Shown here in pieces: positions 12,776 through 30,551 of a stretch of DNA of 64,000 bases; position 1 is the stretch's first letter; every line of letters begins with the position of its first letter. The translations under genes were made by a program, and so were the position numbers. Location of the stretch: assembly GCA_021813325.1 (NCBI GenBank), contig JAKALA010000004.1, positions 62,001-126,000 of the forward strand. The letters are read 5' to 3'. The notes below the pieces were generated by a model. That model did not search any database, was not told the origin of the DNA, and saw nothing but the letters and a program-made list of their open reading frames with translations. Source of the stretch: a bacterium. GTDB lineage: Bacteria > Verrucomicrobiota > Verrucomicrobiia > Limisphaerales > UBA11358.

Positions 12776-15772
12776 ATGCCGCCCAAAGCCAAAACCGCCA
12801 AACCCGCCAAGGCCAAGACCATCGCCACGCTCCGCCACGACGCCAAACGCAAAAACCTCCCCACCGCCGAATACGAATCCCTCATGCGGACGGAGGACAA
12901 ATCGCCCATCGCCGTCGCTTACGCGCGCCGCAACCGCGACCTCGACCCCCAGCTCGTCTGGCGCGGCAAGGACGACCAGGACTGGTCCGACCTCGTCGTG
13001 CCCGCGCCGCCGCTTTACATCCAGGAAAAAGTCCATCCCAAGGTCCTCATTGACGAGCTGCTCCGGCAATCCAAGGCGCGCGCCCAGGCCGACGCCCCGC
13101 AGATAGACCTCTTTGCCGATTTCAACGGCCTGCCCCAGGACGCCCGCGCCACCGAATTTTACCAGCACGACGCCCACTGGACCAACCGCATGATTCTCGG
13201 CGACAGCCTGCAAGTCATGGCTTCGCTCGCCGAGCGCGAAGGCTTGCGCGGGAAAGTCCAGTGCATCTACTTCGATCCGCCCTACGGCATCAAATTCAAT
13301 TCCAATTTCCAATGGAGCACCACCAGCCGCGACGTGAAGGACGGCAACGCCGACCACATCACCCGCGAACCCGAACAGGTCAAAGCCTTCCGCGACACCT
13401 GGCGCGACGGCATTCACAGCTATCTCACCTATTTGCGAGACCGGCTCACTGTTGCCCGCGACTTGCTCGCCGACTCCGGCTCAATCTTCGTTCAAATCGG
13501 CGATGAAAATTTTCATTACATCACCTCGTTGCTGGATGAAACTTTCGGCGCGGATAATCGAATTGCCTTAATTCCTTTTGTAACAACTGGCGGACAATCG
13601 GCGGCGGACATCGGCAACATTTTTAATTACCTGATGTGGTATGCAAAAAGTAAGCCCGCTTTGAAATACCGCCAGTTATACCAAGAAAAAGGACTTCGCG
13701 AAGGCGGTGGCTGGGCGCATTCACGCGCAGAGCTACCAGATTTAACTCGCCCAAATCTTGGAGTTCCAGAAGTGAAAGCACGGCTTGAACGTGGCGAAGC
13801 AATTCGTCCGTATTCACTCGACGGAATTAGTTCTCAAGGTTCAACGGCAACCGGCAGCAGCACATTTTCATTTGAAGGTCGCCAGTTTTCTTGCGGACAC
13901 AATGCGCATTGGAAAACTTCGATGGGCGGAATGCTGCGGTTGGCAAAAGCAAATCGAATTGAAAGCTCAACGAACAGCATTCGCTACGTTCGATTCTTGG
14001 ATGATTTTTCAATTCAGCCGGTGACGAATCTTTGGGATGACACAAATCGGCCTGGTTACATTGACGCCAAAACTTACGTTGTTCAAACGAGCGCGAAAGT
14101 TATCGAGCGTTGCTTTTTGATGACGACCGATCCCGGCGACCTGGTGCTTGACCCGACTTGCGGCAGCGGCACGACGGCTTACGTCGCCGAGCAATGGGGA
14201 CGCCGCTGGATCACCATTGACACCAGCCGCGTGGCGCTCGCGCTCGCCCGCGCCCGCATCATGGGCGCGCGCTATCCGTTCTACCTGCTCGCCGATTCCC
14301 GCGACGGCCAGCTCAAGGAAGCCGAAGTCACCCGCATGTTGCCGTCCGAACAGCCTACACACGGCAATCTTCGCCACGGCTTCGTCTATGAGCGCGTGCC
14401 GCACATCACCCTCAAATCCATCGCCAACAACGCCGAGCTGGATGTCATCTGGGACAAATGGCAGCAGACGCTGGAGCCGTTGCGCGAGCAGTTGAACCAG
14501 GCGCTCAAGAAGAATTGGCAGGAATGGGAAATCCCGCGCGACATCTCTGAATTTTGTAGGAGCCGACGTAAGGAGGCTCAAACTAATTCCCCGAAAAGTC
14601 AGAGCCTCGTGACCTCGGCTCCTACGGAAATCGAAAAACTTCACGCCGCCTGGTGGCAGGCGCGCATCGCCCGGCAAAAGGAAATGGACGCCAGCATCGC
14701 CGCCAAAGCCGAGTTTGAATTTCTCTACGACAAACCTTACGACGACAAATCCAAAGTGCGCGTCGCCGGCCCGTTCACAGTCGAGACGCTTTCGCCGCAT
14801 CGCGTCCTCACCGTGGATGAAAACGACAACGTCGTGGACGGCTGGAAATTGTCCGAGAACAAGGCCAAGGCGGCGGTCGCCGGCACGCCGGATTTCGCCG
14901 CCGTCATCCTCGAAAATCTGAAACTCGCCGGCGTGCAGCAGGCGCACAAGGAAGACCGCATCACCTTCACGTCGCTCTCCGGCTGGCCCGGCGAATTCAT
15001 CTGCGCCGAAGGCCGGTATTTCGAGGGGGCACGAACTGCGCAAGCCGCCGGAACTGTCCCTCGCCCGCGGGAGCGGGAGAGGGTGGCCGAAGGCCGGGTG
15101 AGGGCTGTTGGGGAAAAACAAAATTCTCCGGCGGACGACGATAATTTAGGCGCACAAAAGCGCGCCGCCATTTTCATCGGCCCGGAATTCGGCACGGTGT
15201 CGCGCGCCGATTTGGTGACCGCCGCGCGGGAAGCAGCGGACGCGAATTTTGACGTGTTGATCGCGTGTGCTTTCAATTACGAGGCGCACGCCGCCGAATT
15301 TGAAAAACTCGGCCGCATCCCGGTGTTGAAGGCGCGGATGAATCCCGATTTGCACATGGCCGGCGAATTGAAAAACACCGGCGCGGGCAACCTGTTCGTC
15401 GTCTTCGGCGAGCCGGACATCGAAATCAAACCCGCCGGCAAAGGCGAATTCACCGTGCAAGTCAAAGGCGTGGACGTATTCAAGCCGCAGACCGGCGAAG
15501 TCGTCAGCGCCGGCCCGGAAGGCATCGCGTGCTGGTTCATTGACACAGATTACAACGAAGAAAGTTTCTTCGTCCGTCACGCCTATTTTCTCGGCCAGAA
15601 CGATCCCTACACCGCGCTCAAAACCTCGCTCAAAGCCGAGATTGACCAGGAAGCGTGGTCATCCCTGAACAGCGCCGTGTCGCGGCCGTTCCCCAAACCC
15701 GCGACCAACCGCATCGCGGTCAAAGTGATCAATCATTTGGGCGATGAGGTGATGAAGGTGTTTAAGGTTTAA
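12776..15772 (+). CDS. mod: Type III DNA methyltransferase (Mod), beta-class adenine N6, mosaic
   Basis: The 998-residue product is the modification and target-recognition partner of Res. Motif order is DPPY (D167-Y170, motif IV), then a recognition region, then the AdoMet site DPTCGSGTT (from D459, motif I). This order defines the beta class of N6-adenine methyltransferases. The N-terminal 20 residues are alanine/lysine-rich (KAKTAKPAKAK). The stretch from about 13545 to 14110, between the two catalytic motifs, is AT-richer and uses different codons from its flanks, as expected for a swapped target-recognition domain. Two palindromic repeats sit in frame at 14555-14626 and about 15048-15110. 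The start lies right beside the tRNA-like fragment and has no evident ribosome-binding site. It may be phase- or lineage-variable, but no simple tandem repeat is seen. Confidence 0.9.
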   Translation: MPPKAKTAKPAKAKTIATLRHDAKRKNLPTAEYESLMRTEDKSPIAVAYARRNRDLDPQLVWRGKDDQDWSDLVVPAPPLYIQEKVHPKVLIDELLRQSKARAQADAPQIDLFADFNGLPQDARATEFYQHDAHWTNRMILGDSLQVMASLAEREGLRGKVQCIYFDPPYGIKFNSNFQWSTTSRDVKDGNADHITREPEQVKAFRDTWRDGIHSYLTYLRDRLTVARDLLADSGSIFVQIGDENFHYITSLLDETFGADNRIALIPFVTTGGQSAADIGNIFNYLMWYAKSKPALKYRQLYQEKGLREGGGWAHSRAELPDLTRPNLGVPEVKARLERGEAIRPYSLDGISSQGSTATGSSTFSFEGRQFSCGHNAHWKTSMGGMLRLAKANRIESSTNSIRYVRFLDDFSIQPVTNLWDDTNRPGYIDAKTYVVQTSAKVIERCFLMTTDPGDLVLDPTCGSGTTAYVAEQWGRRWITIDTSRVALALARARIMGARYPFYLLADSRDGQLKEAEVTRMLPSEQPTHGNLRHGFVYERVPHITLKSIANNAELDVIWDKWQQTLEPLREQLNQALKKNWQEWEIPRDISEFCRSRRKEAQTNSPKSQSLVTSAPTEIEKLHAAWWQARIARQKEMDASIAAKAEFEFLYDKPYDDKSKVRVAGPFTVETLSPHRVLTVDENDNVVDGWKLSENKAKAAVAGTPDFAAVILENLKLAGVQQAHKEDRITFTSLSGWPGEFICAEGRYFEGARTAQAAGTVPRPRERERVAEGRVRAVGEKQNSPADDDNLGAQKRAAIFIGPEFGTVSRADLVTAAREAADANFDVLIACAFNYEAHAAEFEKLGRIPVLKARMNPDLHMAGELKNTGAGNLFVVFGEPDIEIKPAGKGEFTVQVKGVDVFKPQTGEVVSAGPEGIACWFIDTDYNEESFFVRHAYFLGQNDPYTALKTSLKAEIDQEAWSSLNSAVSRPFPKPATNRIAVKVINHLGDEVMKVFKV
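14555..14626. repeat. REP-like palindromic element inserted in frame in mod
   Basis: Two 24-base arms, 14556-14579 (beginning GTAGGAGCCGACG) and 14602-14625 (ending CTCGGCTCCTAC), are inverted copies that match at 21 of 24 positions around a 22-base centre. The element is about 72 bases, a multiple of three, and adds about 24 residues (from CRSRRKEAQ to LVTSAPT) without breaking the frame. Confidence 0.75.
15048..15110. repeat. Second palindromic repeat in frame in mod
   Basis: This GC-rich element holds two adjoining hairpins. The first has arms CCCTCGCCCGC and GCGGGAGAGGG, apart from single mismatched bases. The second is TGGCCGAAGGCC. GGTGAGGG follows. It encodes an arginine/glutamate-rich insert (PRPRERERVAEGRVRAVGE) between recognisable Mod segments. 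It differs in sequence from the element at 14555, so two repeat families have entered the same gene. Confidence 0.65.
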
Positions 15773-15776
15773 GCTT

Positions 15777-16066
15777 ATGGAGGCGAACGAGGTTGAACTC
15801 GGCCAGTTATCCAACTGCGCCATGAGCGGTGTTTTTGGTGGTAAAACAATTTGGCAGGTAACGGCCGTATTCCTCTCGCCAAAGCCCCTCATTTACCGCC
15901 GGGATTTATCATCGTTGAGGCCGATAAATTTAAAACAGAATTTTCGGAGCTTGTTCCAAAGCGAGTCGCGCTGTCTTTTGATGAGAAAGCTGCGGCGGAG
16001 AAGGTGAATGCCGCGCCGGGGAAAAGCATGAATTTCGGGCGTGTGTTTCACGGGATTCGCGGTTAG
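15777..16066 (+). pseudogene. Short degenerate or remnant coding region
   Basis: Two overlapping short frames lie between mod and the recombinase. One starts with ATG at 15777 (MEANEVELGQLSNCAMSG). Another, from a TTG at 15851, has more coding-like composition (PLAKAPHLPPGFIIVEADKF through SMNFGRVFHG) and stops at 16066. Joining them would need a frameshift near 15850. I do not recognise a family. It could be the broken tail of an accessory gene left beside the restriction locus, or a real small protein. Confidence 0.3.
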
Positions 16067-16076
16067 AAATCTGCCT

Positions 16077-17051
16077 GTGGAAACGCCGTCTCAGCCTGAA
16101 AGTCCGCCGGAAATCCGCGATGAGCGGGTGGAAAAATTTTTGGCGCATCTGGCCGCGGATCGCGGGGCTTCCGTTTATACCCGGCGCAATTATCAACAGA
16201 CGCTCAAGGAATTCGCGGGCTGGCATCAGGCCGAGCGCAACACGGCTGTGGCCTGGGCAAGCCTTCAGCGGGATGATTTCCGGAATTACCTGCGTTATCT
16301 CGGACGAAACCGGTTGAGCCGGGCCGCGATTTCGCTGCGGTTTTCGGCGCTGCGGACATTTTACAAATTTTTGACGCGCCAGGGCATGGCCGGGACGTTG
16401 CCGATAAAAAATCTGTCGCTTCCCAAAATTGAAAAGCGGCTGCCGAAATTTTTGACGCTCCAGCAAATGAAGGATTTGCTGGAGGCGCCGCCCAAACTGT
16501 TGGGAAAACTCAAAGAAAAGCCGGGTCCTGGCCGGCCCCTGTCAGCCGAAGTTTGCCGGCGTGATCTCGCGGTTTTGGAAACGATCTATTCCTGCGGCTT
16601 GCGGGTCAGCGAACTGTGCGGGTTGCGCGGGGACGATATTGATTGGGCGGAACAAATTGTGCGGGTTCGGGGCAAAGGCAAAAAGGAGCGGCTCGTTCCC
16701 ATTGGCGAACCGGCGCTGCGGGCGATTCGTGATTACTGGGACAATCTGCTGGATCCACCCATGGGCCCAAAACCCGTTTTCCGCTCGGATACCAAAAACG
16801 CTTCGCCGCTCAAACCCTTGCAATTGGCCCGTCGCCTGAAGGTGTATTTGCGCTTTGCCGGCCTCGACCCGTCGCTGACGCCACATAAATTGCGGCACAG
16901 TTACGCCACCCATTTGCTGGATGCCGGCGCGGACCTGCGCAGCGTTCAGGAATTGCTGGGGCACGCGCATCTCATTACCACCCAGGTTTATACGCACGTC
17001 TCAACGGAGCGGCTTAAAAAGGCCTACGAAGCGGCGCATCCCCGCGCCTGA
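16077..17051 (+). CDS. Tyrosine recombinase of the XerC/XerD family
   Basis: The product is a site-specific tyrosine recombinase, about 324 residues from the GTG at 16077; an upstream in-frame GTG at 16041 would add 12. The N-terminal SAM-like DNA-binding domain spans about 20-110 (VEKFLAHLAADRGASVYTRR). The catalytic domain shows the arginine of SCGLRVSELCGL, the lysine-rich beta-hairpin RGKGKKERLVP, HKLRHSYATHLL, LLGHAHLITTQVY and the nucleophilic tyrosine of VYTHVS. Size and architecture match chromosomal XerC/D, which resolves chromosome dimers, more than phage integrases. Its place next to the restriction block and the tRNA-like fragment leaves a role in element mobility possible. Confidence 0.85.
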   Translation: METPSQPESPPEIRDERVEKFLAHLAADRGASVYTRRNYQQTLKEFAGWHQAERNTAVAWASLQRDDFRNYLRYLGRNRLSRAAISLRFSALRTFYKFLTRQGMAGTLPIKNLSLPKIEKRLPKFLTLQQMKDLLEAPPKLLGKLKEKPGPGRPLSAEVCRRDLAVLETIYSCGLRVSELCGLRGDDIDWAEQIVRVRGKGKKERLVPIGEPALRAIRDYWDNLLDPPMGPKPVFRSDTKNASPLKPLQLARRLKVYLRFAGLDPSLTPHKLRHSYATHLLDAGADLRSVQELLGHAHLITTQVYTHVSTERLKKAYEAAHPRA

Positions 17052-17295: not shown

Positions 17296-17997
17296 ATGTA
17301 TCTCAACATCATCCAGCTCGCGGAATCGTTTGGCGTCGAGGAAAGCGTCGTCGAGAGCTGGGTGCGTAATGAGGGGTTGCCGGTCATTGAGGATCGCAAC
17401 CGCCTTTTGTTTGATCGCAATCAAGTCTTGGACTGGGCCGCCGCGCGGGGGCTGGCCGCCAAGGCCGGCTTCCTCGCCGCCGCCAAGACCGCCAGTGCCG
17501 TCCGTCGGCTCGAACCCCTCTTGCGCGTCGGCGGCATTTGGCGCGATGTGCCCGCCGCCAACGTGCGGAGCGTTTTGGAAACCATCGTCGGCAAGCTGCC
17601 CGGCGCCACCCCGCCGGTCCGGCAACTGCTGGCGCAACGGCTGCGCCAGCCTGATGGCATTTCCTGGGCGGCGGTCGGTGGCGGACTCGCGCTGCCGCAT
17701 TTGCGCGCGCCAGTCGCGCTCGGACGCGAAGCCGGCACGTTTGCCATTTTGCTCTTGAGCGATCCGCTGACGCTGAACGAGCCGGCGCCCGACAGCGCGC
17801 CCATCACGCGGCTTCTTTTCTTCGTGGCCCCGTCGCCACGCGCCCATCTGGAACTGCTCGGTCAATTGAGCAGTGCCTTGGTGCGCGGCGGTCTGCGCCA
17901 ACCCATCGTGGCGGGCGCGACGGACGAAGCCATTTTCGCCGCGATCACCGCCGCTGAATCCAACGCGGCGCAAGGCCCGGAGAGCCGACAGCCATGA
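17296..17997 (+). CDS. PtsN-like (PTS EIIA) protein with N-terminal helix-turn-helix
   Basis: The product is about 233 residues from ATG 17296; a GTG at 17275 would add seven. Residues about 1-50 form an excisionase/MerR-like helix-turn-helix (IIQLAESFGVEESVVESWVR). Residues about 80-220 form a PTS EIIA domain of the nitrogen/fructose type, with the phospho-acceptor H135 in GGGLALPHLRAP. Such proteins take phosphate from an HPr-like donor and usually regulate other proteins rather than transport sugar. No PTS permease is nearby. It is the first gene of the membrane-complex operon and its stop overlaps the next start (ATGA), so a control role over that complex is likely. Confidence 0.8.
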   Translation: MYLNIIQLAESFGVEESVVESWVRNEGLPVIEDRNRLLFDRNQVLDWAAARGLAAKAGFLAAAKTASAVRRLEPLLRVGGIWRDVPAANVRSVLETIVGKLPGATPPVRQLLAQRLRQPDGISWAAVGGGLALPHLRAPVALGREAGTFAILLLSDPLTLNEPAPDSAPITRLLFFVAPSPRAHLELLGQLSSALVRGGLRQPIVAGATDEAIFAAITAAESNAAQGPESRQP

Positions 17998-19943
17998 CGC
18001 CGGGCTGTCTGCTCCTGATTGCGCTGGCCGGAATAACCTTGGGATTGCTGACGGCCCGGCCTTCCGCGCGCCTCTGGCTGGCGGCGACACTGGCCGCGTC
18101 GGCAGCCGGCCTGGCGGTTGCCCTGTGGATTTTGCTGGCGCGCGCGACGTGGGACTGGCGCGCGTTTCTTCCCTTTGGCGAACCGTCACTGCATTTGCGG
18201 CTAGATCCGTTGAGCGCGTTTTTCCTGGCGCTACTCGCGGTTTTGGGCGGCGCGGGCAGTTTGTTTTCGCTTGAGTATTGGGCGGACAAAACCCATCCCA
18301 CCTCCGCGCCCTCCAGCCGGTTTTGGTGGAGCGGCGTTTTGCTGTGCATGGGCCTGGTGCTGCTTGCGGCCAACGGAATGATCTTCCTGATTGGCTGGGA
18401 AGCCTTCACGGTTTGCTGCTATTTTCTCATCACGCAGGAACGGCAAAAACGCGCGGTGCGTCAGGCCGGCTGGCTGTATCTGGCGGCGTCGCACGCGGGC
18501 ATGCTCTGCCTGTTCGCATTCTTCGCGCTGCTCGCGGCGCGGACGGGCGGTTGGGAGCTTGGACCGTTGCGCGATCACCCGGAACTCGCGCCGCTGTTCT
18601 GGCTGGCGCTGCTTGGGTTTGGCCTCAAAGCCGGCGTGTTCCCGCTGCACATCTGGCTGCCCTCGGCGCACGCCAACGCGCCGAGTCACGTTTCGGCCAT
18701 GCTTTCGGGCATGACGCTCAAGCTGGGCATTTACGGCCTCGTGCGGTTCAGCGGCTGGCTGCCGCTGCCGGATTCCGCCGGTTGGACGGTGGCTGCGCTG
18801 GGCGCGGTGAGCGCCGTTCTGGGTGTCGCGTTTGCGCTCGGCCAGCATGATTTGAAACGGCTCCTGGCGTATCACAGCGTCGAAAACATCGGCATCATTC
18901 TCATCGGTGTTGGTTTCGCGATGATCGCCACGGCGCACGGCCATCCGCTCTGGGGCCAGCTCGCGCTCGCGGGCGGCTTGTTGCATGTCTGGAACCATGG
19001 GTTGTTCAAGGCGCTTTTGTTTCTGGGCGCCGGGTCGGTGTTGCATGCCACTGGCACACGGGAAATGAGCCGGCTCGGCGGACTCTGGCGCGTGATGCCG
19101 TGGACGGCGGGATTGTTCACCCTCGGCGCGATGGCGATTGCCGGGCTGCCGCCGCTGAACGGTTTCGTCAGCGAATGGCTGGTGTTTCTCGGTTTATTCG
19201 ATGCCGTTTCGGCCCACCGTGTCGCGTTGTGGGCGGCGGTGCCGGCCGCCATTTTGCTGGGCATCACCGGCGCGCTGGCGCTGGCCTGCTTTGCGAAAGT
19301 TTGCGGCGTGGTGTTCGCGGGCGCGCCGCGTTCCGAACTTGTGGAACATGCGCATGAATGCGGCTGGCGAATGCGCGGGCCGATGCTGCTCCTTGCGATG
19401 TTGTGCGTGGCCATTGGCCTCGCGCCGGTTTTATTTTGGCGGCTGGTCGCGCCGGCGGCGGCGGCCTGGCAGCCGGATTGGGCCGGAGCCGCGCTGCCCG
19501 CGCCGCTCATCGAGTTGAGCGCGTTTCATCTGGGCCTCGCCGCCGTGGCGCTGCTCGGCGCGATCTGGCTTTGGCGCCGGGTCAAACGCAACGGACTGAA
19601 CCGCGCCGTCACCTGGGATTGCGGTTACGCCGCCCCGACGGCGCGCATTCAATACACCGCCGGTTCCTTTGCCGGCATCATCAATGAGTGGTTCGACTGG
19701 ATTCTCCAGCGTGAGCGGCACGAGCAGCGGCCCGAGGAAAATTTTCCGGCGCGCGCTCATCAAGTGGAACACACGCCGGAAACCGTGCTGGAAAAAATCG
19801 TCCAACCGGTCGCGGTGGCGGTGCTCCACATTTCCGCCGTGGCGCGGCGGCTCCAGCATGGCCGCGTGCAATCCTACCTGTTGTATTTGCTGATCGGCAT
19901 CGCGGTGCTGGCCGTTTTGGTGGCGATGGGAGGCGCGCAATAA
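17994..19943 (+). CDS. Antiporter-like membrane subunit, HyfB/NuoL family, copy 1
   Basis: The 649-residue integral membrane protein has about 14-16 predicted helices and belongs to the proton-antiporter family shared by complex I (NuoL/M/N), Mrp antiporters and group 4 hydrogenases. Conserved features include the charged residue in LIGWEAFTVCCYFL, the lysine in GFGLKAGVFPLHIWLPSAHANAPS, and HDLKRLLAYHSVENIGII. The C-terminal TWDCGYAAPTARIQYTAGSF segment is typical of HyfB-like subunits. It probably moves protons or sodium across the cytoplasmic membrane. It overlaps the PtsN-like gene by 4 bases and abuts a close paralogue directly downstream (TAAATG junction). Confidence 0.88.
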   Translation: MTPGCLLLIALAGITLGLLTARPSARLWLAATLAASAAGLAVALWILLARATWDWRAFLPFGEPSLHLRLDPLSAFFLALLAVLGGAGSLFSLEYWADKTHPTSAPSSRFWWSGVLLCMGLVLLAANGMIFLIGWEAFTVCCYFLITQERQKRAVRQAGWLYLAASHAGMLCLFAFFALLAARTGGWELGPLRDHPELAPLFWLALLGFGLKAGVFPLHIWLPSAHANAPSHVSAMLSGMTLKLGIYGLVRFSGWLPLPDSAGWTVAALGAVSAVLGVAFALGQHDLKRLLAYHSVENIGIILIGVGFAMIATAHGHPLWGQLALAGGLLHVWNHGLFKALLFLGAGSVLHATGTREMSRLGGLWRVMPWTAGLFTLGAMAIAGLPPLNGFVSEWLVFLGLFDAVSAHRVALWAAVPAAILLGITGALALACFAKVCGVVFAGAPRSELVEHAHECGWRMRGPMLLLAMLCVAIGLAPVLFWRLVAPAAAAWQPDWAGAALPAPLIELSAFHLGLAAVALLGAIWLWRRVKRNGLNRAVTWDCGYAAPTARIQYTAGSFAGIINEWFDWILQRERHEQRPEENFPARAHQVEHTPETVLEKIVQPVAVAVLHISAVARRLQHGRVQSYLLYLLIGIAVLAVLVAMGGAQ

Positions 19944-21899
19944 ATGGCAATGAACATTGGATTACTTTTATCGCTGGCCGGTTTGGCTTCGCTCGCGGGC
20001 GTGCTGGCCGGCGTCCGCTGGCCGCGCCTGTGGCTGGCGCTGACCGTGGGCGGCGCGTTGACGGCGCTGGGCGCGGCGCTCGCGGTGTTGTTGGGCGCGG
20101 CTGCCTGGAACTGGCAGAGCGAATTTTCCGTGGGCGGCGAACCGCTGCATTTTCGGCTTGATGGCTTGAGCGCGTTGTTTCTCGTGCTGGTGGCGGTCGT
20201 GGGCGGCGCGGGGGCAATTTATGCCCGCGAATACTGGCCCGACGCCCATTCCCCGTCCGCGGCGCGGCGGAGCCGGATTTGGTGGAGCGCGTTTGTGTTG
20301 AGCATGGGATTGGTGCTGACCGTCTCCAACGGCCTGCATTTTCTGATGGCGTGGGAAATCTTCGCGCTCTGCGGCTATTTTTTAATCACGCTGGATGGTG
20401 AGCGCAGCGGCGTGCGCGCGGCGGGCTGGTTGTATCTGGTCGCCTCGCACGCGGGCACCATGGCGTTATTCGCGTTTTTCACGGCGCTGGCGTCGCTGAC
20501 CGGCGGTTGGGATCTTGGTCCGATGCGCGATCAGGCGGGACTCGCCCCGCTGTTCTGGCTGGCGTTGTTTGGCTTTGGCATGAAAGCGGGTTTCTTTCCG
20601 CTGCACATCTGGCTGCCCTCGGCGCACGCGAAATCGCCCAGTCACGTTTCGGCCATCATGTCGGGCGTGGCGATTAAAATGGGGCTTTACGGCATTGTGC
20701 GTTTCAGCGGCTGGCTGCCGGTGCCGGCGGCGGCGGGCTGGGTGGTGATTGGTCTGGGCGCGGTCAGCGCGCTGCTGGGAATCGCCTTTGCCTTTGCGCA
20801 AAACGACGTGAAACGGCTGCTGGCGTATTGCTCGGTGGAAAACATGGGCGTCATCATGATTGGCGTTGGGGTCGCGCTGCTGGCGTCGGTGCGCGGCCAT
20901 GCGCTTTGGGGGCAACTAGCGCTGGCCGGGGCGCTGCTGCACGTGTGGAATCACGGAGCGTTCAAATCGCTTTTGTTTTTTGGGTCCGGCTCAATTTTGC
21001 ATGCCACCGGCACGCGCGAAATGAGCCGGCTCGGCGGGCTTGCCAGGACGATGCCCTGGACGGCCGGCCTGTTCGCGCTGGGTTCCATTGCCGCCGCCGG
21101 TTTGCCGCCGCTGAACGGCTTTATCAGCGAATGGCTGATTTATCTCGGCTTGTTCGACACCGTCACCACCGAGGCCAATCCGCCGTGGATCGCCATTCCG
21201 GCGGTGGTGTTGCTGGCCACGGCGGGCGCCCTGGCCCTGGCGGCGTTCGCCAAGGCGTGTTCGACCATTTTCCTTGGCGCGCCGCGGACAAAGGCGGCCA
21301 GCCACGCACACGAATGCGGAAACTGGATGCGCGGGCCGATGCTGGCCCTGGCGGGTGTGTGCGCGCTGGCGGGACTCGCGCCGTTTTTATTTTGGCCGGC
21401 CATTTCCCGCGCGGTGGCGGCTTGGAACCCCGCCTGGACGGCGGCCGAGATTCCCGCGCCCCTGATGACGCTGGGCGCGGCGCAAATGATTTTGGCCATG
21501 GTGGTGACGCTGGCGGCCGCGTGGCTGGGGCGTCAGGCGCGCGCGAACGGCCTGCAACGCCGGCCAACGTGGGATTGCGGTTACGCGGCGCCGACGGCGC
21601 GGATTCAATACACCGGCGGTTCCTTTGCCGGCATCGCCAGCAGTTGGTTCGGCTGGGTTTTACAGCCGGAACGGAAATTGCGCCGGCCCCGCGGCTATTT
21701 TCCGACGGAAGCCATCCGCCTGGAGCGTGTGCCGGAAACCGTGCTGGAACGCGTCATTGCGCCGGTGGCTGAACGGGTCATGTGGCTTTCCAACGCCGCG
21801 CGCCGCAGGCAGCACGGGCGGCTGCAATTTTACATTCTTTATCTTGTGGCCGGGCTGGTGGCGCTCGGCCTGCTCGTGATTTTGGGAGGTTTGCGATGA
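19944..21899 (+). CDS. Antiporter-like membrane subunit, HyfB/NuoL family, copy 2
   Basis: The 651-residue protein aligns along its whole length with the preceding gene. Blocks such as FPLHIWLPSAHA, ILHATGTREMSRLGGL, PWTAGLF, GLPPLNGF and WDCGYAAPTARIQYT are identical or nearly so in both. The two genes are therefore a tandem duplication kept at similar length with both sets of charged residues (AWEIFALCGYFL, GFGMKAGFFPLH, NDVKRLLAYCSVEN). Start ATG 19944 follows the upstream stop without a gap; ATG 19950 is an alternative. Two such subunits beside the HyfF-like one give three antiporter-like modules, which would suggest more ion-translocation channels than in a minimal group 4 hydrogenase. 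Confidence 0.88.
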   Translation: MAMNIGLLLSLAGLASLAGVLAGVRWPRLWLALTVGGALTALGAALAVLLGAAAWNWQSEFSVGGEPLHFRLDGLSALFLVLVAVVGGAGAIYAREYWPDAHSPSAARRSRIWWSAFVLSMGLVLTVSNGLHFLMAWEIFALCGYFLITLDGERSGVRAAGWLYLVASHAGTMALFAFFTALASLTGGWDLGPMRDQAGLAPLFWLALFGFGMKAGFFPLHIWLPSAHAKSPSHVSAIMSGVAIKMGLYGIVRFSGWLPVPAAAGWVVIGLGAVSALLGIAFAFAQNDVKRLLAYCSVENMGVIMIGVGVALLASVRGHALWGQLALAGALLHVWNHGAFKSLLFFGSGSILHATGTREMSRLGGLARTMPWTAGLFALGSIAAAGLPPLNGFISEWLIYLGLFDTVTTEANPPWIAIPAVVLLATAGALALAAFAKACSTIFLGAPRTKAASHAHECGNWMRGPMLALAGVCALAGLAPFLFWPAISRAVAAWNPAWTAAEIPAPLMTLGAAQMILAMVVTLAAAWLGRQARANGLQRRPTWDCGYAAPTARIQYTGGSFAGIASSWFGWVLQPERKLRRPRGYFPTEAIRLERVPETVLERVIAPVAERVMWLSNAARRRQHGRLQFYILYLVAGLVALGLLVILGGLR

Positions 21900-22798
21900 T
21901 TTACACGTTTGAACTCATCCTCCGGCTCGCGATTTGGCTGCTGCTGGCGCCATTGCTGCCCGGCATCATCAACAAAGTAAAAGCCTGGGTTGCCGGCCGC
22001 CGCGGGCCGCCGGTGCTGCAACTTTACTACGACCTGGCGAAACTGTGGCGCAAAGGCGTGGTGATGAGCACGCTCGCGTCGCCCGGATTTATCGCGGGGC
22101 CGGCGGTTGCCTGGGTGGCGCTGCTGGCGGCGGCGATCTTGATGCCGCTGGGGCCGCTGGGAAGCGCGCTGAGTTTTCGCGGCGACGTGCTGCTGCTGAT
22201 TTATCTGCTGGCGCTGGCGCGTTTCTGCACGGCCTGGGCGGCGATGGAAACCGGCTCGGCGTTTGAAGGCATGGGGGCGGCGCGCGAAGTGAGCTACGCC
22301 GTGCTGGCCGAGGCGGCGATCATCGCGGCGGTGCTGGCGTTGAGCGTTCATACCCGCAGCGTGTCGCTGGTGACCATGTTGTCGCCGTCCGCCGGCGCGG
22401 GCGCGGCGCTGCTGGCGGCGGGATTGTTTACCGTGTTGTTGGCGGAAAACTGCCGGGTGCCGTTTGACGATCCCAACACGCATCTGGAATTGACGATGAT
22501 TCACGAAGTCATGGTGCTGGATCACAGCGGTCCGCCGCTGGCGGCGATTTTGCACGGCGCGTCGGTGAAGCTGCTGTTGTTTTCCGTGCTGCTGGTGCAG
22601 GCGGTGGTGCCGCTGGGAAATTTATCCGCGCCGCTGGCGGGCGCGGCCTTGGCGGGCGGCGTGCTGGCGGTGACGATTGGCGTGGGCCTGGTGGAATCGC
22701 TGCTGGCGCGGCTGGCGTTTCGCCGCGTGCCGCTGCTGCTCACCACGGCGTTTTTGCTGTGTCTGTTTGCGTTGCTGGTTTCGTGGAACTGGAAATGA
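21896..22798 (+). CDS. Membrane subunit, HyfC/NuoH-like
   Basis: The product is 300 residues from ATG 21896, whose ATGA overlaps the previous stop. It is a multi-helix protein of the NuoH/HyfC family, which anchors the soluble electron-transfer arm to the membrane and forms part of the quinone or proton-entry site. The typical segments are present: GPPVLQLYYDLAKLWRKG near the N-terminus, ETGSAFEGMGAAREVSYAVL, and the acidic loop AENCRVPFDDPNTHLELTMI with EVMVLDHSGP. Open sequence upstream of 21896 belongs to the preceding gene in another frame. A repeat-filled gap of about 275 bases follows, the only long gap in this operon. Confidence 0.88.
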   Translation: MIYTFELILRLAIWLLLAPLLPGIINKVKAWVAGRRGPPVLQLYYDLAKLWRKGVVMSTLASPGFIAGPAVAWVALLAAAILMPLGPLGSALSFRGDVLLLIYLLALARFCTAWAAMETGSAFEGMGAAREVSYAVLAEAAIIAAVLALSVHTRSVSLVTMLSPSAGAGAALLAAGLFTVLLAENCRVPFDDPNTHLELTMIHEVMVLDHSGPPLAAILHGASVKLLLFSVLLVQAVVPLGNLSAPLAGAALAGGVLAVTIGVGLVESLLARLAFRRVPLLLTTAFLLCLFALLVSWNWK

Positions 22799-23073
22799 GC
22801 GAAAATGGAAAACATTGAACATTTGACATTTAATACTCGCCGGCGCGATTTTTCGGGCGTTCCCGAACCGGAACGAAGCCGTCGCGTCCATGCGTGGTGG
22901 CGACGCCTCGTCGCCGTGTGTGAACGCGACGCCTTCGTCGCGCGATATTTCGGTTTTGGTTTGAGGGGCGTTGGTGGGAACGGGCGGCGGGGCGCCGCTG
23001 GCACCCCCGGCGGCGAGGGCGCCGCCGCCACTACGGTCAGTGGCGGCGCCTGGCTTGCGCAAGGAGGACGGCC
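22799..23073. repeat. Intergenic patch of dispersed repeats inside the operon
   Basis: No credible gene is seen. Three repeat types are stacked here. An AT-rich stretch at about 22805-22835 (ACATTGAACATTTGACATTT) resembles a low-complexity repeat. Two direct copies of a self-complementary unit, GGCGACGCCTCGTCGCC and GCGACGCCTTCGTCGC, lie at about 22899-22942 and match the family at 43769. A GC-rich hairpin with arms CGCCGCCACT and AGTGGCGGCG lies at about 23023-23049. A strong AAGGAGG ribosome-binding site at 23061-23067 serves the following gene. Confidence 0.6.
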
Positions 23074-23718
23074 ATGAATGGAACTGTAAATTTAGTCATC
23101 GGCTTGGCGATGGGCTTGAACCTGCTCGCGCTGGGGAGCAGCCGGCTGCCAACCCTCATCCGCGCGATGTCGCTGCAAGGCGTGGTGTTGGGCGTGATGC
23201 CGCTGCTGATCGAACATGAGCGGCTCAACTGGCAGATTCTGGCGGTGGCGGTAGCCACGATGGCGGGCAAGGGCGTGCTGATTCCCAGCCTGCTTCAGCG
23301 GGCGATGCGCGCGGCGAACATTGACCGCGAAATGGAGCCGTTCATCGGCTTCGTGCCGTCGCTGTTGCTCGGAGCGGGCGGCACGATCGGCGCGGTGGCG
23401 CTGGCGCAGGAGCTGCCGTTGCTGCCGGAGCACGCCGGGTCGTTGCTGGTGCCGGGCGCGATGGCGTCCATGCTGACCGGTTTTATTTTGCTGATTGGCC
23501 GGGCCAAGGCGATTTCGCAGGTCTGCGGCTATTTGATTTTGGAAAACGGCATTTACCTGTTCGGGCTGCTGCTGATTCACTCCACGCCGTTGCTGGTGGA
23601 ATCGGGCATCCTGCTGGACCTCACGGTGGGCGTGTTTGTCATCGGCATCATCGTGGACCGTATCCAGCGGGCCTTTGATTCGCTCGACACGCGCAAACTC
23701 ACGACGCTTCACGAATGA
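23074..23718 (+). CDS. Membrane subunit, HyfE-like
   Basis: The 214-residue protein is nearly all hydrophobic, with about six predicted helices, and matches the HyfE family, a distant NuoK relative found in formate hydrogenlyase-2 and related complexes. The N-terminus (NLVIGLAMGLNLLALGSSRL) and the segments LLGAGGTIGAVALAQELPLL and VCGYLILENGIYLFGLLL (with the membrane glutamate typical of NuoK-like subunits) fit this. It has the clearest Shine-Dalgarno sequence in the window (AAGGAGG, 6 bases before ATG), perhaps because the repeat patch upstream breaks translational coupling. Its stop overlaps the next start by ATGA. Confidence 0.85.
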   Translation: MNGTVNLVIGLAMGLNLLALGSSRLPTLIRAMSLQGVVLGVMPLLIEHERLNWQILAVAVATMAGKGVLIPSLLQRAMRAANIDREMEPFIGFVPSLLLGAGGTIGAVALAQELPLLPEHAGSLLVPGAMASMLTGFILLIGRAKAISQVCGYLILENGIYLFGLLLIHSTPLLVESGILLDLTVGVFVIGIIVDRIQRAFDSLDTRKLTTLHE

Positions 23719-25157
23719 ACCCGCTGCTTCTCATCTTGGTTCCGCTGGCCGGCGCGCTGTGGGCGGCGCTGTGGCCGGACAACCGCACGCGCCCCTGGCT
23801 GCTGCCCGTGGTCGGTCTGGCGCATGTGACGTTGTGCGGCTGGCTGTTTATCCGTCCGCCGGAATTTTCACCGGACGCGTGGTTTGCGTTCGATCCGCTG
23901 GCGCGGGCCGTGTTGCCGGCGGTGTCGCTCCTGTTTTTTGTGTGCGCGATTTACAGCGTGTTTTATCTGCATATTCGGGCGGAACGGAACAACCGCGTGT
24001 TTGTGGCGCTGCTGCTGGCGGTGCTGGGACTGTTGAGCGCGGGCCATCAATCGCGGCATCTGGGCATGTTGTGGATCACCACGGAGGCGATTACGCTGGC
24101 CACGGTGCCCTTGTTGCATTTCAACGCCACGCCGCGCGCGTTTGAAGCGACCTGGAAATATCTGCTCGTCGGCGGCACGGGCATCGCGTTGTCTTTGTTG
24201 GGTTCGTTCTGCCTGGGCTACGCGTCATTGCATGGCGGTGGGGTTGGCAACCTGACGTTCACCGCGCTGGCGGCGCAGGGCGTGGAACTATCGCGTCCGT
24301 GGGTGCTCACGGCGTGGGTGTTGGTGCTCGTGGGCTACGGCACGAAGATGGGGTTGGCGCCGATGCACACTTGGAAGCCGGACACTTACGGCGAGGCGCC
24401 GGGCCTTGTGGGCGCGTTGCTGGCGGGCGCGGTGACGACGGTGGCGTTCACGGCCATTTTGCGCGTGCGGTTCGTGGTGGCGGCGGCGGGACAGGGGAGA
24501 ATCGCTGATTTGACGCTGCTGGCTGTCGGTCTTTTTTCCATGCTGGTCGCGGCGCTGTTTTTGCTGGGAACGCGCAACTACAAACGAATGCTGGCTTATT
24601 CCAGCGTGGAGCACATGGGCATTCTGGCCGTGGCGGCGTCGCTGGGCGGCGCGGGCGCGGCGGCGGGACTGTTTCATGTGTGGAGCAATGCTTTGACGAA
24701 GGGCGCGCTGTTCATGAGCGCGGGCAACATCCGGCGCGCGGCGGGTTCGGCCTCGATGGATGACGTGCGGGGCATGATGAAATTGACGCCGCGCTCGGCG
24801 GCATTGTTCGTCACCGGTTTGTTCGCCATCACGGCGTGTCCGCCGTTCAGCCCGTTTTTCAGCGAATTGCTGGTGCTGCGGGCGGCGCTGGCCGCGCATC
24901 ATTGGGCGGCCACGGCCATATTTTTGATTTGCCTGCTGCTGGTGTTTTTTGGCATGACGCGGGTCGTTTTCGGGGTCGTGGATGGGCGTCCGCGTCCGGG
25001 GACGGTGGCCAACAGCCGGCGTTTTGTGGAAACCGCCGGCGTGATTGCTCCGCCGCTGCTGCTGCTCGGCTTGTCCTTGTGGATCGGGCTGTTTACGCCG
25101 CCATTGTTGCGGGACGCCTGGTCGGCGGCGGTGGCCCAACTTTTTCCCGCACCATGA
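23715..25157 (+). CDS. Antiporter-like membrane subunit, HyfF/NuoN-like
   Basis: This 480-residue multi-helix protein is the third antiporter-family subunit of the operon. It is shorter than the two HyfB-like copies and resembles HyfF/NuoN. Key membrane charges are visible in LWITTEAITLATVPLLHF (glutamate), VGYGTKMGLAPMHTWKPDTY (lysine), TRNYKRMLAYSSVEHMGIL (lysine and histidine) and HVWSNALTKGALFMSAGNI. It is expected to couple electron transfer in the soluble arm to ion movement. It overlaps both neighbours by 4 bases (ATGA), so expression is tightly coupled. Confidence 0.87.
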   Translation: MNPLLLILVPLAGALWAALWPDNRTRPWLLPVVGLAHVTLCGWLFIRPPEFSPDAWFAFDPLARAVLPAVSLLFFVCAIYSVFYLHIRAERNNRVFVALLLAVLGLLSAGHQSRHLGMLWITTEAITLATVPLLHFNATPRAFEATWKYLLVGGTGIALSLLGSFCLGYASLHGGGVGNLTFTALAAQGVELSRPWVLTAWVLVLVGYGTKMGLAPMHTWKPDTYGEAPGLVGALLAGAVTTVAFTAILRVRFVVAAAGQGRIADLTLLAVGLFSMLVAALFLLGTRNYKRMLAYSSVEHMGILAVAASLGGAGAAAGLFHVWSNALTKGALFMSAGNIRRAAGSASMDDVRGMMKLTPRSAALFVTGLFAITACPPFSPFFSELLVLRAALAAHHWAATAIFLICLLLVFFGMTRVVFGVVDGRPRPGTVANSRRFVETAGVIAPPLLLLGLSLWIGLFTPPLLRDAWSAAVAQLFPAP

Positions 25158-26632
25158 ACACGACTTCATTCATCCAACTGGCCAACGCCACGAGTTTGCC
25201 CTGGCCGGAAGTGCCGGTTTTGCCGGTGGCGGAACTGGTTCATGAAACGGCGCTGGAACTGGAGCGCGGCGCGCGGTTGTGCGCGTGGCTGGGCGTGCCG
25301 GAAAATTACGGCGTCAGCCTGTTGGCCGGGCTGGCTTTTGATGCGGACAACACGCTGGCCGTGGCGCGCAGCCGGCCGTTCACCGGCGGTTATCCCTCGC
25401 TTACCATGGCGCAGCCGCAGGCGCACATGTTCGAGCGCGAAGTTTGGGAGCAGCACGGCGTGACGCCGGAAGGGCATCCCTGGTTGAAACCGGTGCGCCG
25501 CCAGGAAAAGGATCATCCGGCAAATGGAAAATTTTTTGAAGTCGCCGGCGGCGAAATTCATGAAGTGGGCGTCGGGCCGGTTCATGCCGGAGTCATTGAG
25601 CCGGGACATTTCCGGTTTCAATGCAACGGCGAAGAGGTGTTGCACCTGGAAATCGCGCTGGGGTATCAGCATCGCGGGGTGGAGGAAGCTTTGGCCGGCG
25701 GGCCTCATCGCGCGACGCTGGCGCAAATGGAAACCGTGGCCGGCGACACAACCATCGGCCACGCGACCGCCTATGCGCTGACGCTGGAAGCGCTCGCGGG
25801 CACGGAAGCGCCGTTGCGCGCCCAATGGCTGCGGGCCATCGCGTTGGAACTGGAGCGGCTGGCAAACCACACCGGTGACATCGGCGCGCTGGCGGGCGAC
25901 GTGGCGTTTCTGCCGACCGCGGCGGCGTGCGGGAAAATTCGCGGCGATTTTCTGAATCTGACGGCGCTGATTTGCGGCAATCGTTTTGGGCGCGGATTGG
26001 TGCGTCCCGGCGGCTGCAGATGGGATTTGGAACCGTCGCGCGCCGGGCAATTGCTGGAAAAATCGCGCGGGGTGCTGGCCGATGTGAATCAGGCGATTGA
26101 CTGGCTGTGGGATGCGAATTCCGTGCGCTCGCGGTTCGAGACGGTCGGCGCGGTGACCAGCCGGCAGGCGGCTGACCTCGGGCTGGTCGGCGTGGCCGCG
26201 CGCGCGGCGGGTTTGGTGCGCGACGTGCGGTTCGACCATCCGGCGGGCTGGCATCGTTTTGCGCAAACGCCGGTTTCCACTTGGCCGGATGGCGATGTGT
26301 TTGCGCGGGCGCGGGTGCGTTGTCTGGAAATTCAGCGATCCGGGAAATTTTTGGAGGAACAACTCACGCAGCCGCCGGAGGATGAATTTTTTGGGCAACC
26401 GGGAACATTGCCCGGCGATACGCTGGCGGTGGCGCTGGTCGAAGGCTGGCGCGGCGAAATTTGTCACGTGGCGCTAACCGGTGCTGACGGAAAATTCCGG
26501 CGCTATAAAATCGTGGATCCGTCGTTCCACAACTGGCCGGGTTTGGCCCTGGCGTTGCGGCGGCAGGCGATCTCGGATTTTCCGATCTGCAACAAGAGTT
26601 TCAACTTATCGTATTGCGGCTTCGATCTCTGA
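25154..26632 (+). CDS. Large subunit, HyfG/NuoCD-like, lacking N-terminal Ni-ligand cysteines
   Basis: The product is 492 residues from ATG 25154 (ATGA overlap). The N-terminal part (about 1-130) resembles the NuoC-like 30-kDa domain, and the rest the 49-kDa/large subunit (IEPGHFRFQCNGEEVLHLEIALGYQHRGVEE). In group 4 NiFe hydrogenases the next region carries a CxxC that binds nickel. Here the aligned segment reads METVAGDTTIGHATAYAL, with no cysteine. The C-terminal DPCxxC motif is also absent; the protein ends DFPICNKSFNLSYCGFDL. A functional NiFe site is therefore unlikely. The subunit probably reacts with another acceptor or donor, as proposed for Ehr-type complexes. The true substrate is unknown. 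Confidence 0.85.
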   Translation: MNTTSFIQLANATSLPWPEVPVLPVAELVHETALELERGARLCAWLGVPENYGVSLLAGLAFDADNTLAVARSRPFTGGYPSLTMAQPQAHMFEREVWEQHGVTPEGHPWLKPVRRQEKDHPANGKFFEVAGGEIHEVGVGPVHAGVIEPGHFRFQCNGEEVLHLEIALGYQHRGVEEALAGGPHRATLAQMETVAGDTTIGHATAYALTLEALAGTEAPLRAQWLRAIALELERLANHTGDIGALAGDVAFLPTAAACGKIRGDFLNLTALICGNRFGRGLVRPGGCRWDLEPSRAGQLLEKSRGVLADVNQAIDWLWDANSVRSRFETVGAVTSRQAADLGLVGVAARAAGLVRDVRFDHPAGWHRFAQTPVSTWPDGDVFARARVRCLEIQRSGKFLEEQLTQPPEDEFFGQPGTLPGDTLAVALVEGWRGEICHVALTGADGKFRRYKIVDPSFHNWPGLALALRRQAISDFPICNKSFNLSYCGFDL

Positions 26633-26635
26633 CCT

Positions 26636-27415
26636 ATGTTTGTTTTCGACACACTTTTGCATCGGGCGCGGCGCGGTTGTGAAACCATGGCGTATCCGCG
26701 CGGCACGGCGCCGGCGCTGCCGGAGCGGCATGGCGGGGCCTTGCGCGTGGACGGCACGAAATGCGCCGACGATTGCGCGGCGTGCGTGCCGGTTTGTCCA
26801 ACTCAGGCGATTACACGCGCCGACGGCAAACCGGTGGCGCTGGATTTGGGGAAATGCCTTTTTTGCGCGGCGTGTGTTGAGGCTTGTCCGACCGAAGCTA
26901 TTGCGCAAACCAAAGACCATCGCCTGGCGGTGCGGCGGCGGGAAGATTTGTTTCTCGGCGCGCCGGGCATGGAAGAAGTGCGGCTGGCGGCGGCGTTGGA
27001 TGAACGGCTGAAAAAACTATTCGGACGGTCGCTGCGGTTGCGGCAGGTGAGCGCCGGCGGTTGCAACGCGTGCGAGGCGGACACGAACGTCCTAGGCACG
27101 ATTGGCTGGGATTTGGGGCGTTTTGGCATCCAGTTTGTGGCGTCGCCGCGGCACGCGGACGGGCTGCTGATCACCGGCCCGGTGAGCCGCAACATGGAAC
27201 TGGCGTTGAAAAAGACCTACGATGCGGTGGCGGCGCCCAAAATCGTGATTGCGGTGGGCGCGTGTGCCATAGCCGGGGGACCGTTTATCGGGCATTCGCA
27301 GACGGCGGAGGGGGCGGGATCGGTGGTGCCGGTGGATTTGTTTGTGCCCGGTTGTCCGCCACATCCGTTGACCATTTTAGACGGCTTGCTGCGTTTGTTG
27401 GGGCGGTTGGATTAG
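26636..27415 (+). CDS. Ferredoxin-small subunit fusion (HyfH + HyfI/NuoB-like)
   Basis: The 259-residue protein joins two electron-transfer domains that are usually separate. Residues about 40-90 are a two-[4Fe-4S] ferredoxin domain with CADDCAACVPVCP and CLFCAACVEACP. Residues about 120-259 are the NuoB/HyfI-like small subunit with proximal-cluster ligands in GGCNACEADTN, VGACAIAGGPF and VPGCPPHP. It therefore brings electrons to the catalytic large subunit encoded immediately upstream (3-base gap). No NAD- or formate-oxidising subunit is in the window, so ferredoxin or another carrier is the likely partner (inference). It ends the operon. Confidence 0.88.
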   Translation: MFVFDTLLHRARRGCETMAYPRGTAPALPERHGGALRVDGTKCADDCAACVPVCPTQAITRADGKPVALDLGKCLFCAACVEACPTEAIAQTKDHRLAVRRREDLFLGAPGMEEVRLAAALDERLKKLFGRSLRLRQVSAGGCNACEADTNVLGTIGWDLGRFGIQFVASPRHADGLLITGPVSRNMELALKKTYDAVAAPKIVIAVGACAIAGGPFIGHSQTAEGAGSVVPVDLFVPGCPPHPLTILDGLLRLLGRLD

Positions 27416-27629: not shown

Positions 27630-27705
27630 GCCCATGTAGCTCAGTTGGTAGAGCACATCCTTGGTAAGGATGAGGTCATCAGTTCAATCCTGATCATGGG
27701 CTCCA
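27630..27705 (+). tRNA. tRNA-Thr (anticodon GGT)
   Basis: The acceptor stem GCCCATG/CATGGGC, D-arm GCTCAGTTGGTAGAGC, anticodon stem CATCC/GGATG with loop TTGGTAA, and T-loop TTCAATC are all present. The CCA end is encoded. It is the first gene of the tuf-rpoC cluster. Confidence 0.96.
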
Positions 27706-27752
27706 GTTAAAACTAAAAACGCAGCAAACGAGACAAGCAACACAACAATCAC

Positions 27753-28940
<1,188 letters not shown>

Positions 28941-28954
28941 GGCGAATTTGGAAC

Positions 28955-28991
28955 GGGAGCGCGGCGGTTTGAACCTCCGTGCTCCCTTTTT
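28955..28991 (+). terminator. Intrinsic terminator after tuf
   Basis: A stem of about 12 pairs begins GGGAGCGCGG and closes with CTCCGTGCTCCC, followed by TTTTT at 28987-28991. It separates tuf from the tRNA-Trp/secE part of the cluster, so downstream genes need partial readthrough or a promoter within the next 30 bases. Confidence 0.85.
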
Positions 28992-29022
28992 GTCCGTAGA
29001 TGACGGCATGGTTTTGACGGTT

Positions 29023-29098
29023 ACGGCAGTAGCTCAATTGGTAGAGTAGTGGTCTCCAAAACCATTGGTTGCAGGTTCAAGTCCTGCCTGCCGTGCCA
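29023..29098 (+). tRNA. tRNA-Trp (anticodon CCA)
   Basis: The acceptor stem ACGGCAG/CTGCCGT, anticodon loop CTCCAAA, T-stem GCAGG/CCTGC and an encoded CCA end are visible. A tRNA-Trp just before secE is a common bacterial arrangement. Confidence 0.96.
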
Positions 29099-29110
29099 GT
29101 CTGCTAAAAT

Positions 29111-29200
29111 GGAGAGGTGGCAGAGTGGTCTATCGCGGCGGTCTTGAAAACCGCTTTGGTGTAACAGCCAACGGGGGTTCGAATCCCTCCCTCTCCGCCA
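29111..29200 (+). tRNA. tRNA-Ser (anticodon TGA)
   Basis: The acceptor stem GGAGAGG/CCTCTCC, anticodon loop CTTGAAA, a long variable arm as expected for a class II serine tRNA, T-loop TTCGAAT and encoded CCA are present. Its 3' end lies only 8 bases before the secE start codon. Confidence 0.95.
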
Positions 29201-29208
29201 AAAAATTT

Positions 29209-29460
29209 GTGAAAGACTGGATACATATCGCAATTTGGTCGGCAATCATTTTGGTTGTCTTTGGTTACCTCTGGTGGCAGGGGCAGATTCAACGTTTGAC
29301 CGTCTATGTGCAGGAGACGCGCGAGGAGCTTAAGAAATGCTCGTGGCCCAGTTGGGAGGAACTGAAAGGTTCGACCGCCTTGATTGGCATTATGATTTTG
29401 TTGCTGGGCGCCTTTGTTGTGTTAGTTGATCGTGTTCTGTTCACCATCTTTATCCGTTAA
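29209..29460 (+). CDS. secE: Preprotein translocase subunit SecE
   Basis: The product is 83 residues from GTG 29209. SecE is the small clamp subunit of the SecYEG channel. A first membrane helix is at about 5-22 (IAIWSAIILVVFGYLWW). The conserved amphipathic motif VQETREELKKCSWPSWEE follows at about 32-49, then the essential C-terminal helix (IGIMILLLGAFVVLVDRVLF). The frame stays open upstream through the tRNA genes, but the tRNA-Ser boundary makes GTG 29209 the first possible start. With only 8 bases of leader after the tRNA there is no room for a normal ribosome-binding site. It is cotranscribed with nusG, whose start follows after 4 bases. Confidence 0.9.
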   Translation: MKDWIHIAIWSAIILVVFGYLWWQGQIQRLTVYVQETREELKKCSWPSWEELKGSTALIGIMILLLGAFVVLVDRVLFTIFIR

Positions 29461-29464
29461 TTTC

Positions 29465-30010: not shown

Positions 30011-30072
30011 TACAATTTTCAGCCCGTCACGCATGATGGGCTAAAGCGGCTAGTTTTTAATAAAAAATTTTT

Positions 30073-30498: not shown

Positions 30499-30551
30499 TT
30501 AACAATCCAACGCGGGAGAATCTCGGATTCGCTTGCACCGCACCATCATCA

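Follow-up and report, generated by a model that had tools for sequence, protein, structure and literature searches.

The 64,000-nucleotide stretch of DNA analysed here (the window) belongs to a 4.28-Mb assembly that is 95% complete (GCA_021813325.1), and carries on its forward strand an operon for an energy-converting-hydrogenase-related (Ehr) complex, the large subunit of which lacks the nickel-binding cysteines of [NiFe] hydrogenases. The list of open reading frames and family searches placed eight same-strand (+) genes in positions 17296-27415 (Table 1), in the order given by a preliminary description of this DNA: a gene for a helix-turn-helix (HTH) protein with an EIIA domain of the phosphotransferase system (PTS), two HyfB-like genes, a NuoH-like, a HyfE-like and a HyfF-like gene, and the genes for the large (EhrL) and small (EhrS) subunits. 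Stop and start codons overlap at several joins, including that between the HyfF-like and large-subunit genes and that between the EIIA gene and the first HyfB gene, where the EIIA stop and the HyfB start share ATGA. The nearest named relatives of EhrL come for the most part from the Verrucomicrobiota.

Ehr complexes cannot be classified as hydrogenases because their NiFe ligands are missing (PMC6349859). As in the definition used in that study, EhrL belongs to the superfamily of group 4 enzymes and complex I and has no NiFe ligands. It is accompanied by Mrp- and complex-I-like membrane subunits and by a small subunit with a proximal [4Fe-4S] cluster, subunit types that agree with those listed for the Geobacter sulfurreducens complex (PMC7894505). 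A tree was built from 57 large subunits, MbhL and the membrane-bound sulfane sulfur reductase (MBS) not among them. Its 39 Ehr sequences formed one side of a branch with support of 100/100, and the complex I clade was likewise supported at 100/100. The Ehr clade contains Geobacter argillaceus and Geomonas limicola; G. sulfurreducens was not in the tree. The NiFe group 4 enzymes fell on the complex I side, so that on this tree, the root of which was only drawn at the midpoint, Ehr and complex I parted with the NiFe site independently of each other. Subunit families, ligand loss and the single clade thus bear out the Ehr-type identity proposed in the preliminary description, and identity as a nickel-free Ehr complex is well supported.

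Table 1. Genes of the Ehr operon and former nickel-ligand places in its large subunit
Feature	Position	Strand	Basis
HTH_17-EIIA (PtsN-like)	17296..17997	+	Pfam PTS_EIIA_2 2.9e-6; profile match to PtsN structures 8e-28
HyfB/EhrA-type antiporter-like subunit, copy 1	17994..19943	+	NCBIfam hydrogenase 4 subunit B 1e-162
HyfB/EhrA-type antiporter-like subunit, copy 2	19944..21899	+	NCBIfam hydrogenase 4 subunit B 5e-153
NuoH/HyfC/EhrB-like membrane anchor	21896..22798	+	Pfam NADHdh 5e-26
HyfE/EhrC-like membrane subunit	23074..23718	+	NCBIfam hydrogenase 4 membrane subunit 5e-22
HyfF/EhrD-like antiporter subunit	23715..25157	+	NCBIfam hydrogenase 4 subunit F 8e-75
Large subunit EhrL, 30-kDa and 49-kDa domains fused	25154..26632	+	Pfam Complex1_49kDa 1.6e-26, Complex1_30kDa 6e-6
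N-terminal NiFe CxxC place, A195-G196-D197-T198	25739..25750	+	Alignment; G196 and D197 in 94/94 homologues
C-terminal DPCxxC place, C478 NKSFNLSYC487GFDL	26588..26629	+	Alignment; S485, G488, N479, K480, Y486 and D490 in 94/94 homologues
Small subunit EhrS, HycF-like 2x[4Fe-4S] domain and NuoB/HycG-like domain	26636..27415	+	Pfam Oxidored_q6 2e-25, Fer4 domains

The nickel site, the remaining pocket and the iron-sulfur chain

Ungapped alignment with E. coli HycE and HyfG placed TVAGDTTIGH of EhrL (residue numbers start with the codon at 25157) against RVCGICGFAH, and SFNLSYCGFDL against SLDPCYSCTDR. The four NiFe ligand positions are occupied by A195, T198, S485 and G488, all four cysteines being replaced. 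Conservation was scored over 94 large-subunit homologues, with relatives 30-78% identical to EhrL of the window. The first ligand column holds Ala in 83, Ser in 9, Cys in 1 and Thr in 1, the second Thr in 78, Ser in 13, Ala in 2 and Val in 1, while the third is Ser and the fourth Gly in all 94; none of them has a CxxC pair left anywhere. C487, which directly precedes the position of the second C-terminal ligand, is not found in nine homologues, and C478 is missing from five. EhrL also ends at the C-terminal motif and has no counterpart of the tail with which HycE and HyfG continue beyond their ligands. The absence of the N-terminal CxxC and the C-terminal DPCxxC had been claimed in the preliminary description, which named displacement of the cysteines as one observation that would overturn it; both absences held in the alignment with HycE, HyfG and NuoD and in the homologue columns, and displacement was confined to a single cysteine that nine homologues do without, which could not restore a site. 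Judged from these alignments, neither pair remains: both N-terminal cysteines are gone, and at the C-terminal place a single cysteine persists, shifted by one residue. Loss of the nickel site in Ehr large subunits is well supported.

The distribution of maturation genes is consistent with this. HypD was absent from 7 of 20 Ehr-bearing genomes (G143, G284, G010, G025, G083, G291 and G292), several of which are 97-100% complete, and genuine NiFe hydrogenases (PF00374, over the Pfam cut-off) occurred in the 13 HypD-bearing genomes and in no others. Ehr can do without maturation genes. The window's own genome carries HypD alongside two NiFe hydrogenases, one of full length (C66) and one on the HypD contig (C27); its Hyp genes are uninformative on Ehr because of these other hydrogenases.

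The closest structure to EhrL by profile was HycE of the formate hydrogenlyase (FHL; 7z0s, 8e-95), and the predicted model of EhrL, with a predicted local distance difference test (pLDDT) score of 90, matched the same protein by fold (2.4e-29). NuoD ranked highest among the NCBIfam families, an identity that we rejected since profile, fold and motif evidence place EhrL nearer HycE. The residue equivalent to MbhL E21, a key residue in proton reduction (PMC7684303), is E148, which is invariant in the 94 homologues; the EPGHFR motif with the proton-relay Glu is common to EhrL and Hyc/Hyf. The same alignment lists H143, H172, G196, D197, N479, K480, S485, Y486 and D490 as pocket residues. G196 sits at the position of the quinone-binding Y87 of Nqo4 and is Gly in every homologue, and H172, the equivalent of Nqo4 H38, is likewise invariant, but this His is not diagnostic for quinone because HycE carries it too. 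As predicted from these residues, the old NiFe pocket is polar and proton-competent, unlike the hydrophobic aprotic chamber of MBS, and we infer that it binds a polar substrate.

In EhrS, the proximal-cluster cysteines (C143xxC146, C210 and C240) are all present and in register with HycG rather than with the tandem CC of NuoB, in agreement with the preliminary description, which had called them intact. The N-terminal part contains two [4Fe-4S] motifs, the first spaced Cx3Cx2Cx3C, with each of its four cysteines found in 78-88 of the 90 sequences scored (89 relatives aligned at full length). The ferredoxin fusion had been offered in the preliminary description as part of a distinct layout, but it proved to be standard among the 89 full-length relatives. 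In the membrane arm, both HyfB-type subunits have the Glu of transmembrane helix (TM) 5 and the Lys of TM7, TM8 and TM12, aligned with HyfB, and the HyfF-type subunit has the TM5 Glu and TM7 Lys. Proton pumping by the complex is therefore likely, as far as conserved residues can indicate.

The PtsN-like protein at the head of the operon

The AlphaFold2 model of the HTH-EIIA protein (pLDDT 91) had the PtsN structures 3urr and 1a6j as its top fold matches. Alignment with PtsN identified the active-site histidines as H134 (17698-17700), in an IPH motif, and H183 (17845-17847), in an AHL motif, and W46, H134, D165 and H183 are invariant in 50 of 50 HTH-EIIA homologues, 48 of which have an HTH_17 domain and 48 an EIIA_2 domain. 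A further EIIA protein, of the ordinary kind, is encoded on a different contig of the genome, which also has the genes for EI and HPr.

Named loci were regarded as informative if they include a HyfB gene, and 41 of the 71 such loci, drawn from many phyla, have an HTH-EIIA gene. The PtsN-like gene, offered in the preliminary description as part of a distinct layout, is therefore widespread, and together with the standard small-subunit fusion makes that layout a family trait. Of 45 cases, 37 have EIIA directly 5' of a HyfB gene, mostly at 60 bases or less or overlapping it. The EIIA-HyfB pair is split off to the other strand in L098 (Geobacter argillaceus) and L127, and elsewhere EIIA precedes a NuoH-like gene (L060, L061 and L066) or the large-subunit gene (L062 and L082). 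Three operons (L061, L062 and L068) have two EIIA copies; in L062, an extra HTH-EIIA gene (L062:9279-9989) lies directly before the large-subunit gene, and the other precedes the second HyfB gene.

EI was found in 21 of 22 EIIA-bearing genomes and in 22 of 28 without EIIA (p = 0.09), a difference that ignores kinship and is not proof. In three Holophagaceae genomes with an Ehr locus that lacks EIIA, EI and HPr are absent as well. PtsN has been reported to act on the control of potassium uptake (PMC9239096), which gives an EIIA action on ion transport a precedent. Conservation of the gene and of its histidines suggests that Ehr could be under PTS control. Full-text searches for EIIA or PtsN with group 4 hydrogenases or Mrp antiporters, with most subscription papers outside their reach, returned no paper on such a link, and the connection between EIIA and Ehr seems not to have been made previously.

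Proposed function and alternative explanations

We consider it reasonably probable that Ehr is a nickel-free, ferredoxin-linked, proton-translocating oxidoreductase that is tied to the PTS and acts on a polar substrate other than H2 or quinone. The subunit make-up, the lost NiFe site, the intact clusters, the proton-path residues and the EIIA gene with both histidines are read directly from the DNA; the remaining steps are our reconstruction. Electrons would pass between soluble ferredoxin, which we infer as the partner from the HycF-like domain of EhrS, and the two N-terminal [4Fe-4S] clusters, then to the hydrogenase-type proximal cluster of EhrS, and then to the EhrL pocket at the former NiFe site, presumably in that direction. 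Because this pocket has kept the relay Glu and gained the invariant polar residues Asp197, Asn479, Lys480, Ser485 and Tyr486, it probably converts a polar small molecule, neither H2 nor, in general, quinone, in a reaction coupled to protons. The redox reaction would power H+ movement via the three antiporter-like subunits, and the phosphorylation state of HTH-EIIA may set either expression of the operon or activity via the adjacent HyfB subunit.

Several observations weigh against this proposal. No EIIA gene was found in the available stretch of 30 of the 71 informative loci, indicating that EIIA is not essential to the complex, and the co-occurrence of EIIA and EI is only suggestive. The HTH part of the window's HTH-EIIA protein is too divergent for Pfam to recognise by itself. 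The EhrL model is a single chain, in which the active-site loops and the last residues have low confidence. Clustering of the genes that flank relatives' loci revealed no conserved donor or acceptor neighbour.

It is conceivable, though unlikely, that the complex is a ferredoxin:menaquinone oxidoreductase, in effect a complex I that has no NADH module and uses menaquinone as acceptor in the large-subunit chamber. The NuoD/Nqo4 fold of EhrL, the invariant H172 and the futalosine menaquinone genes of the window's own genome would fit this explanation; however, the Nqo4 Y87 position is Gly throughout, and H172 has its counterpart in HycE. MqnA/MqnD were found in 10 of 25 Ehr genomes and MenD over the cut-off in one, and neither pathway, so defined, was found in 14, among them genomes that are 91-98% complete and the single-contig G083; in two Ehr genomes even the UbiA family gave no match. 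Single cases of this kind might come from scavenged quinone or incomplete assemblies, but hardly all of them. The 14 pathway-less genomes, together with the replaced quinone Tyr, make quinone unlikely as a general acceptor. A working [NiFe] hydrogenase with displaced ligands is more doubtful by far, and we regard it as extremely improbable: the FHL large subunit is the closest solved relative and C478 and C487 lie near the old site in sequence, but these cysteines are dispensable among the homologues, none of which has a CxxC pair, seven Ehr genomes lack HypD, and the HycE/HyfG tail is gone. Only slightly less remote is an MBS-type reductase acting on sulfane sulfur or disulfides. MBS has been characterised and belongs to this superfamily, with an incomplete NiFe site (PMC7684303), but its proximal cluster has three cysteines in a shorter motif where EhrS has four at HycG length, and it has lost the proton-relay Glu that is invariant in EhrL.

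The complex could also run in reverse, with the proton gradient driving ferredoxin reduction for CO2 fixation or pyruvate synthesis. The Ehr complex of G. sulfurreducens is abundant on formate, reverse electron transport is the proposal made in PMC7894505, and the antiporter-like subunits keep their proton-path residues; against this, sequence cannot tell direction, an electron donor would still be needed, and Ehr-bearing fermenters would be expected to need oxidation of ferredoxin rather than its reduction. We give reverse operation a low probability. A less improbable objection, which we nevertheless doubt, concerns EIIA, which may do no more than regulate transcription locally, or may be a hitch-hiker, unconnected in either case with a phosphorelay. 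Its HTH_17 DNA-binding domain and the loci without it would be explained in this way, whereas the invariance of both active-site histidines, the absence of EI and HPr from the three Holophagaceae genomes without EIIA, and the duplicated EIIA genes of several operons would not.

Within the proposed PTS-tied oxidoreductase, a more specific and rather speculative version is that the phosphorelay gates the pump, with HTH-EIIA in one phosphorylation state binding HyfB and opening or closing the pump according to the phosphoenolpyruvate/pyruvate state, and with a polar substrate other than quinone being reduced in the former NiFe pocket. The range of functions open to Ehr is in any case narrowed: the complex can do without maturation genes, a general role of quinone as acceptor is unlikely, the relay Glu is retained along with a new, invariant polar pocket, and a PTS-type partner recurs.

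Neighbouring genes and comparison with known systems

The NuoH-like and HyfE-like genes of the window are separated by a 275-base gap (22799-23073) without a recognised gene, short pieces of which recur at three other sites in the genome. A gene for a XerC/D-like tyrosine recombinase (16041-17051) lies about 250 bases 5' of the operon, and the product of 12776-15772 (998 aa) has an N6/N4 DNA methylase domain and may be the modification subunit of a type III system. Directly 3' of the operon (27630-31244) are tRNA-Thr, an EF-Tu-like gene, tRNA-Trp and tRNA-Ser, followed by secE/nusG-like and ribosomal-protein-like genes. Searches for a sigma-70-like promoter 5' of the operon and a terminator 3' of it found neither, and an RNA-family search found nothing beyond the tRNA.

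Among the relatives, G099 has a second Ehr operon (B-D-E-F-L-S), about 40% identical, nested between F and L of the first (L035:3-14104), and L061 has both kinds in tandem. In L082 (180-12368), Ehr L-S and EIIA adjoin DabA, genes of the antiporter-like kind and a SulP permease that carries a fused P-II-like domain; this neighbourhood is an inorganic-carbon uptake cluster. In two assemblies, STAS-bearing SulP permease genes also lie close 5' of the Ehr operon and share its strand (L058, 2225-4252; L059, 3-1784). We considered SulP and DabA as Ehr partners and set them aside, as SulP near five loci (two of them close 5') and DabA in one (L082) are too few to weigh.

The HTH-EIIA protein has in common with PtsN (EIIA-Ntr) the fold and both active-site histidines, and differs in its added N-terminal HTH_17 domain and its place in an Ehr operon. 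For the complex as a whole, the G. sulfurreducens Ehr cluster GSU0739-0745, which includes EhrA-1, EhrC, EhrL and EhrS, has the same kinds of subunit (counterparts EhrA-1, A-2, B, C, D, L and S); according to PMC7894505, its role has never been investigated. Geomonas limicola and Geobacter argillaceus have syntenic relatives, with large subunits 52-57% identical to EhrL of the window and identical motifs. HTH-EIIA opens the operon of the window and adjoins theirs, and the passages on the G. sulfurreducens Ehr complex do not name such a gene.

The E. coli formate hydrogenlyase and hydrogenase 4 (Hyc/Hyf) provide the nearest solved structure and are alike in the membrane arm and [4Fe-4S] chain, but the operon of the window has its HycF and HycG homologues fused, no formate dehydrogenase gene and no C-terminal tail on the large subunit. 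Respiratory complex I shares a homologous core (NuoB/C/D/H/L/M/N) and is likewise without a NiFe site; the window operon differs from it in having no NADH module, in a proximal cluster with CxxC rather than tandem cysteines, and in keeping the quinone His (H172) with the Tyr replaced by Gly, and its large subunit belongs to another clade. The MBS of Pyrococcus furiosus is also a group-4-like complex with an incomplete NiFe site, which keeps two of the four NiFe cysteines and has a shortened proximal-cluster motif and no proton-relay Glu (PMC7684303). Since this motif is three residues shorter, the MBS proximal cluster has only three Cys ligands, in contrast to the four cysteines at HycG length in EhrS and the invariant proton-relay Glu of EhrL.

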